Shown piece after piece: positions 11,461-49,807 of a DNA stretch of 52,083 nt (within the stretch, counting starts at the first letter, position 1; every line of letters starts with the position of its first letter). The DNA comes from an uncultured Clostridia bacterium (GTDB taxonomy: Bacteria; Bacillota; Clostridia; Oscillospirales; Oscillospiraceae): contig CAMHEN010000003.1 in assembly GCA_946184165.1 (NCBI GenBank), positions 1 through 52,083 on the forward strand. The letters run 5' to 3'. The notes beneath the pieces were generated by a model. It was not told the DNA's origin. It ran no database searches and was given only the letters and a program-made list of their open reading frames with translations. Position numbers and translations under genes: made by a program.

Positions 11461-11687
11461 CGAATCGTTTTTCAGGCAGCTCCGCCGCCCGAAAAGCACC
11501 ATAAGCCGAGCTGTGCGAAGCCTCGCGCCGTCGTCAAACGAAACGCACCGCATTCCGCTTCCCTAATTGCGAAGAGCTGGGGAAGCTTCATATCCGTTCT
11601 TTCCGTCTTCCGCTCAAAATCAAGGCCAATGCTTTGGTTTTGTATGAGCGCGAGTATCTCGATCGAAATCAGAGATTTCAATCGAAT
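11461..11687 (-). repeat. Hairpin-rich dispersed repeat, copy f
   Basis: On the minus strand this begins with the palindrome CGATTGAAATC-TCT-GATTTCGATCG and ends with GGCGGAGCTGCCTGAAAAACGA. Both ends align with the copies at 39403-39548 and 49191-49337, though the middle here is about 80 bases longer. It fills the space between the attenuator terminator and aroF, so it is transcribed as part of the aro leader. No credible ORF lies in it. Confidence 0.65.
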
Positions 11688-18800: not shown

Positions 18801-18830
18801 ATTCAATTGCGAACACGGTTCGCGAATATT
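18801..18830 (+). repeat. Solo end-palindrome of the dispersed repeat, copy c
   Basis: ATTGCGAAC-ACG-GTTCGCGAAT lies in the mgtE leader just after the transcription start. It is the same palindrome type as at the end of the 39403 and 49191 repeats. Confidence 0.5.
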
Positions 18831-24316: not shown

Positions 24317-24320
24317 TATT

Positions 24321-24362
24321 CGATCGCAAGCTTTGGTTTGCAATCGAGATACTCGCGCTTCA
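24321..24362 (+). repeat. Solo end-palindrome of the dispersed repeat, copy e
   Basis: CGATCGCAAGC-TTTG-GTTTGCAATCG followed by AGATACTCGCGCT. The same AGATACTCGCGCT follows the palindrome of copy f in the aro leader. It sits directly before the MBL-fold gene. Confidence 0.6.
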
Positions 24363-39380: not shown

Positions 39381-39402
39381 AGGGCTTCCCTCCTAAAATT
39401 AT

Positions 39403-39548
39403 TTCAATTGCAAACAACGTTTGCAATCGAGGACCCGCATTTATCGCACGCGGCGGAGCGTACACGCCGCGTTTGGCCGATGCGAGGCCTCGCAAGGCTC
39501 GGCTCAGGGTGTTGTTGAGGCGGCAAAGCGGCCTCAACAACGATTTGA
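39403..39548 (+). repeat. Hairpin-rich dispersed repeat, copy a
   Basis: Begins CAATTGCAAAC-AAC-GTTTGCAATCG and contains CGCGGCG ... CGCCGCG, palindromic GCGAGGCCTCGC, and the strong hairpin TTGTTGAGGC ... GCCTCAACAA, ending AACGATTTG. It aligns along its whole length with copy b (49191-49337). It lies just upstream of the minus-strand flavoprotein gene. The remaining 39549-39698 has no gene I can support. Confidence 0.75.
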
Positions 39549-39698
39549 AATCCTGCCGCCGAAGGCCCTTGCCAGCAAGTGGTCTTCGCAATTGACGCAA
39601 GATTGTATCATCGGCCGCCGGTGTTCGCGGCCGGAATGATTTTCTGTTTTCCAGTTTATTCGTTTTCCCTGGAAAAGTCAAGAAAAGCCGTGAAAAAG

Positions 39699-49170: not shown

Positions 49171-49190
49171 TTTGCAGCCTCCTTTTTTAA

Positions 49191-49337
49191 TTCGATTGCA
49201 AACACGGTCTGCAATCGCGGAACTCGCATTTATCGCACACAGCGGTGCGTGATCCGCCGCGTTTGGTCGACGCGAGAGTTCGCTTTGCTCACTGACGGTG
49301 TTTCTGAGGCGGCAAAGCTGCCCCAAAAACGATTTGC
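49191..49337 (+). repeat. Hairpin-rich dispersed repeat, copy b
   Basis: Begins CGATTGCAAACACGGTCTGC and ends GGCGGCAAAGCTGCCCCAAA then AACGATTTG, aligning along its length with copy a (39403). It occupies the space between nfeD and the SPFH gene, so it is transcribed inside that operon, in antisense orientation. The ORF-track extension to 49371 reads through it and is not real. Confidence 0.75.
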
Positions 49338-49348
49338 GTAATTTGTAC

Positions 49349-49807
49349 TCAGGGTTCCTTTTCCTCAACAATCAGCTTGACGCCTTCTATGCGCAGTACG
49401 CGCAGGACAACTCCCTTCGGGGCCTTACCGTCAGCCGCGGCCATGCGCGCGGTCCAGGTCTTGCCGCCGACCGACACGGTGCCGGTGCCGAGTACGTTGT
49501 CGATCGCCTCCGTCACCACGCAGTCCTTGCCGATGACCATATCGGCGTTGGTGGGGACGGCGCGGCCGTTGACGTATTTTTTCGCAAGGGGCCGCGTGAG
49601 CAGCAGCGTCACGATGGAGATGAGGAAAAACCAGACAATCTGCAGCCAGAGCGGCGCGCCCAGCATGGCCGAAATCATCGCAGCCAGCGCTCCGAGCGCG
49701 AACCAGATCGAAACAAGCCCCGGCGCGAGTCCCTCCACAATCAGCAGCACAACCGTCGCGGCAAGCCACAGGACGGCCATGCCGGATCCGAGTATTCCAA
49801 AGTTCAT
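49349..49807 (-). CDS. nfeD: NfeD family membrane protein
   Basis: 152 residues, the short NfeD1b type without a protease domain. Membrane helices cover about 8-75 (MAVLWLAATVVLLIVEGLAP, then LQIVWFFLISIVTLLLTRPL), and a C-terminal OB-fold follows (VIGKDCVVTEAIDN, GTVSVGGKTWTARMA). It is the usual partner of stomatin-like proteins. ATG 49807 has AAAGGAGAA upstream. First gene of the nfeD-SPFH pair. Confidence 0.92.
   Translation of the reverse strand: MNFGILGSGMAVLWLAATVVLLIVEGLAPGLVSIWFALGALAAMISAMLGAPLWLQIVWFFLISIVTLLLTRPLAKKYVNGRAVPTNADMVIGKDCVVTEAIDNVLGTGTVSVGGKTWTARMAAADGKAPKGVVLRVLRIEGVKLIVEEKEP

Follow-up and report, generated by a model that had tools for sequence, protein, structure and literature searches.

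What occupies the space ahead of an Fe-S/flavin oxidoreductase gene in this uncultured member of the Oscillospiraceae, and why do its hairpins stay paired while its sequence drifts? The window analyzed here is the whole stretch of 52,083 nucleotides (contig CAMHEN010000003.1), in which a preliminary description had proposed a dispersed, hairpin-rich repeat with three long copies (a, b and f). Our reading is that the element is very probably a miniature inverted-repeat element (MITE), non-autonomous, which moved by way of 15-bp ends with an 11-bp duplication and whose hairpins were kept afterwards. The cause of that upkeep is a separate matter, on which we are considerably less certain. The window contains the following features:

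39402..39599, + strand: copy a, core hairpins P1 to P4 plus the right arm, delimited by nucleotide comparison, genome matches and a covariance model, with the right repeat placed by inspection
39403..39430, + strand: hairpin P1 of copy a, the left inverted repeat followed by its own inverted copy
39435..39492, + strand: hairpin P2 of copy a, a two-part stem with inner stem GCGGCG/CGCCGC
39511..39542, + strand: hairpin P4 of copy a, GTTGTTGAGGCGGC AAAG CGGCCTCAACAAC
49190..49336, + strand: copy b, core hairpins P1 to P4, in the gap that separates the NfeD and SPFH/Band_7 genes of a single operon
11461..11687, - strand: copy f, a diverged, partly deleted relative of the long form, upstream of a DAHP synthase gene
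24319..24360, + strand: fragment with P1 and the start of P2 only (nhmmer E = 1.6e-4)
18803..18830, + strand: fragment with P1 only, its second arm decayed (weak; model E = 2.3)

The interval 39403-39548, initially taken for the whole unit, is the core only. Hairpins P1 to P4 of copy a fill 39402-39546, the right inverted repeat (TTCGCAATTGAC) lies at 39585-39596 and the arm runs to about 39599. Copies a and b are 79.6% identical over 147 bp (E about 1e-32); copy f matches the last 67 bp of a at 77.6% identity (E about 2.5e-12) and a long-form copy, L247 (L numbers denote element copies, G numbers genomes), at 77.8% over 185 bp. A covariance model trained on 63 copies, with a and b included and f left out, returned E values in the window of 1e-30 for a, 1e-26 for b and 2.5e-9 for the P2-P4 part of f. 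The proposal of three long copies holds for a and b but not for f, which is a shortened, diverged relative of a long form of 350-390 bp; f does carry the same type of starting palindrome as a and b. The placement claimed for all three, upstream of genes or within operon gaps, also stands: a precedes the oxidoreductase gene, b separates the NfeD and SPFH genes and f precedes the DAHP synthase gene. By inspection, the C-terminal end of NfeD differs from that of relatives at the insertion of copy b (window 49340-49371), which seems to have replaced the last NfeD codons. Upstream of the DAHP synthase gene, a short leader ORF (MKSSLFYAYYYSFTGFGR; 11818-11762, - strand) followed by a terminator (11718-11685, - strand) looks like a Phe/Tyr attenuator. 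Such a leader is kept in relatives (e.g., MKNVFFFAYYYLFTGVRG), and the insertion point of copy f falls between it and the DAHP synthase gene.

Searching the genome of origin (2.26 Mb, 67% complete) with copy a gave 43 matches (E from 6e-96 to 4e-4), corresponding to about 40 separate copies, so that the outcome that would have spoken against a repeat, no further copies and chance-level alignment, is excluded on both counts, given also the a/b alignment. The covariance model likewise recovered copies throughout this genome and beyond it. Copy a was matched in 17 of 60 relatives, all of the same genus, and the model found matches in 9 of 121 genomes of the family (8 of 106 genera), strong in G142, G147 and G148 and weak in G083, G133, G092 and G149. 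A collection-wide scan with the P2 pattern yielded at least 108 stretches; among the matches listed, the carriers are metagenome-assembled genomes (MAGs) of Oscillospiraceae, Ruminococcaceae or Clostridia, nearly all from the rumen or ruminant gut, and the exact pattern had no match in virus contigs. The repeat family spans many species of the genus, is patchy in other genera of the family and is not confined to a single species. On contig 37 of G142, the copies L263 and L272 follow one another in direct tandem with 4 bases between them. L029, L035, L046 and L017 are adjoined or interrupted by further dispersed repeats (motifs include GAGGTTCTAGTATGAG and CTTGATTAAAGGTTTAATCAAG), so that the genome of origin harbors several families of hairpin repeats, side by side and nested.

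The boundaries of the element identify it as a mobile unit. The whole unit measures about 190-204 bp between 15-bp terminal inverted repeats (TAGTCRATTGCGAAA); in several copies a right arm of 40-60 bp is followed by the inverted copy of the left end, and the two ends match as inverted repeats at 11 or more of 15 positions in 14 copies, against 1.3 expected. In the cleanest copy, L021, a perfect 15-bp inverted repeat (TGGTCGATTGCGAAA/TTTCGCAATCGACCA) is flanked by a perfect 11-bp duplication (TATTTGAGTAT). Exact 11-bp duplications also flank L283 (AATCGTTATCT), L228/L245 (AAACAGTCTAT), L241 (AAAACAGGATC) and the 36-bp solo palindrome L281 (ATGATTTTTAG), and L214/L021; the additional cases came from a search of other genomes with the end sequences, followed by retrieval of the sites. 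Once both ends were required, a duplication with at least 10 of its 11 bases matching was present in 11 of the 70 candidate end pairs, whereas shuffled pairing predicts 0.08. Target-site duplications, suggested at the outset as something to look for, are thus present in intact copies. Among all copies, with both ends not required, there was no overall excess and most copies had no recognizable duplication, as is expected of older insertions; the mobility of the typical copy rests on the younger, end-intact subset. End pairs are spaced at 34-36, mainly 181-212, or 317-387 bp; two others span about 90 bp. At 34-36 bp, many pairs represent only the P1 of a longer copy, but true solo palindromes also exist. 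In the long form (350-390 bp), P2 is interrupted midway by an insert. By inspection, the stem-structured core has no conserved reading frame.

Empty sites, likewise proposed as a check in sister strains, were found in related species. The site of L021, a copy of G000 whose duplicated 11 bp overlap a promoter -10-like TATACT, is empty in G027 and G060, where the upstream region of the orthologous gene is uninterrupted. None of the 10 relatives compared has copy b between its NfeD and SPFH genes. Copy a is common to G027, G060 and G260 and absent from the orthologous upstream region in G033, G007, G034, G063 and G245, and the site of copy f is, in relatives, occupied differently or not at all. 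Together with the roughly 40 copies, the inverted ends and the duplications, these sites support the original view of a dispersed, probably non-autonomous mobile repeat. At several orthologous gene pairs, the same intergenic gap holds different copies with different junctions in different species, suggesting repeated insertion into the same gaps. The left end often lies 1-4 bp past a stop codon or 21-26 bp ahead of a start codon. Orientations relative to neighboring genes (45/32/29/25) follow a near-equal background with no strand preference; because they do, the element uses gene borders with no visible functional direction, and strand-specific regulatory placement is ruled out.

The hairpins have clearly been kept as sequence drifted, as first proposed. 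RNAalifold predicted 44 pairs in four hairpins, 26 of them with two-sided changes; counted on that structure, paired cells make up 97.7% of the total, and 154 cells carry two-sided changes, compared to 28 in shuffles. The observed covariation was reached by 0 of 500 shuffles, and sliding the partner by 1-3 columns destroys the signal. Copy a itself folds below its shuffles (z = -4.9 as DNA; -5.4 and -5.1 as RNA of the two strands). Among 29 orthologous or same-gap copy pairs, a set that includes some independent insertions in one gap, changes on both sides numbered 68 against 13.9 expected. Restricting the set to the 17 pairs with the same junction left 20 compensatory changes (3.7 expected) and 19 one-sided changes; most of the 20 come from three pairs, the counts ignore phylogeny and re-insertion or gene conversion may underlie some of the "orthologous" comparisons. 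Since the same-junction set includes copies without recognizable right ends, pairing has been kept after mobility was lost. P4 was considered as a terminator and rejected by inspection, its A/T tracts being on the wrong sides of the stem.

Two accounts of this upkeep have to be weighed, and the type of mispair bears on both. Across 156 unique copies, with three predominantly G.U pairs set aside, stem cells comprise 6049 Watson-Crick pairs, 100 A.C and 54 G.U. If the + strand specified a functional RNA, G.U would be expected to outnumber A.C by a wide margin; here A.C exceeds G.U on that strand (p about 3e-4, relatedness ignored). Because G.U intermediates are not enriched, maintenance of the palindrome at the DNA level fits at least as well as a function in RNA. 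The first account, to which we give about an even chance as the main cause and which we favor over selection on RNA, is that mutation alone keeps the stems: replication would switch templates between the arms of an imperfect palindrome, so that one arm is rewritten from the other. Template switching has been described for RNA hairpins (PMC8794818). It would exchange Watson-Crick states with few G.U intermediates, as observed, and would act on either strand and in decayed copies; the small excess of A.C over G.U is not something it predicts. More tentatively, at clearly less than even odds, we suggest that the hairpins of a dead mobile element keep their Watson-Crick pairing by template switching without any selection. 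The covariation seen here would then say nothing in favor of an RNA function, the many copies would form a natural archive of stem rewriting in DNA, and the dataset could serve directly as a negative control for methods that infer functional RNAs from compensatory changes.

The second account, possible but the less probable of the two, is that the pairing is kept by selection on the RNA of the element as a 5' leader, operon spacer or small RNA, making it a co-opted MITE; its role might then be to stabilize or process mRNA. The strong covariation of the hairpins is what such selection would produce, and paired changes occur at same-junction loci with decayed ends (e.g., L120/L150 and L032/L081). 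Copies often abut a ribosome-binding site, one lies between a promoter and a ribosome-binding site, and the A.C excess on the + strand would follow from wobble tolerance in a minus-strand RNA. Yet the element has no orientation preference relative to neighboring genes, wobble pairs are scarce whichever strand is read (54 and 100 among about 6300 pairs), unlike in typical structural RNA, and no Rfam family was matched: with Rfam 15 at gathering and permissive thresholds, only tRNAs were detected in the window and nothing credible in representative copies.

Returning to the element as a MITE, we propose the following life cycle. The 15-bp ends (TAGTCRATTGCGAAA and its inverse) would be recognized by a DDE-type transposase encoded elsewhere and acting in trans, which would paste the element into AT-rich sites at gene borders through an 11-bp staggered cut, leaving the 11-bp duplication. 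P1 consists of the left end and then its inverse, so that the second arm of P1 and the right end are direct repeats; deletion between these two probably generated the 34-36 bp solo palindromes, one of which (L281) retains an intact 11-bp duplication; such an origin would require no separate mobile unit of 36 bp. After insertion, ends and duplications would decay while the hairpins stay paired by two-sided changes. Templated correction of near-palindromes in replication would presumably be the main cause, perhaps supplemented by selection on RNA leaders. The ends, 11-bp duplications, empty sites, dispersal, size classes and lack of strand preference can be read from the sequences themselves. 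The family predicts an unseen transposase with an 11-bp cut. Among 102 genomes of the genus, no kilobase-sized end pair that might mark an autonomous partner was found, which is weak evidence, as repeated insertion sequences are often lost from MAG assemblies; the few DDE_Tnp_1 (PF01609) loci found had matching ends in no case.

Could a different kind of enzyme have moved it? REPINs and GTAG-REPs are intergenic, high-copy palindromes tied to RAYT enzymes and have no target duplication (PMC3116915, PMC3733652). The rumen element resembles them in being palindromic, intergenic and abundant and in having solo palindromes of 34-36 bp, and differs in its 11-bp duplication. HUH enzymes (RAYT/IS200-IS605) are not known to create target duplications on insertion, and exact 11-bp duplications occur here even at the solo palindrome L281, so it is very unlikely that the element is a palindrome of the REP/REPIN type mobilized by such an enzyme. 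Least probable of all is a fixed, non-mobile family of noncoding RNAs or regulatory elements that spread with genes: some copies do share a place in several species, but the duplications and empty sites rule it out as the principal reading, and inverted ends and unrelated neighboring genes also speak against it.

By its architecture and behavior, the element belongs with the MITEs that have a structured core, such as bcr1 and other hairpin MITEs (PMC3733652, PMC10969869), as a new family of a type already known. Like other MITEs, it is shorter than 500 bp without coding capacity and has terminal inverted repeats, a target-site duplication and presence or absence at orthologous sites. We found no published description of it in the literature searched (subscription papers lay outside the search), and the family adds an abundant, apparently undescribed repeat of uncultured rumen Oscillospiraceae that fills gene borders and enters leaders and operon gaps. 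Covariation methods could miscall it as a structured RNA, and it allows two questions that are usually merged, whether paired stems are kept and whether the RNA has a function, to be separated. For the source of the helper enzyme, the IS4 family may offer a lead only: its insertions duplicate roughly a helix turn of the target, about 10 bp (PMC2266710), which is close to the 11 bp seen here, but the ends of the rumen element (TAGTC...) do not match the 5'-CAT ends quoted for IS231/ISH8 (PMC2266710). Prokaryotic MITEs (RUP, NEMIS/Correia, ERIC and QMITE) are noncoding, below 500 bp and gene-adjacent, with inverted ends, duplications in younger copies and predicted stem-loop transcripts (PMC10969869, PMC3733652). 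The rumen element shares their size, ends, duplications and gene adjacency, whereas its core is GC-rich rather than AT-rich and consists of four separate stems that covary between copies. A further likeness is to bcr1 of the Bacillus cereus group (Okstad et al. 2004, cited in PMC2267715), which PMC2267715 and PMC3733652 describe as a dispersed, intergenic repeat of about 150 bp, found in a single bacterial group, with a conserved stem-loop structure and features of mobile elements. Compared by description only, the two are alike in size, dispersal, intergenic position, restriction to one group and stem-loops, and they differ in host class, the rumen element having its own ends, an 11-bp duplication and three size classes that include solo palindromes.
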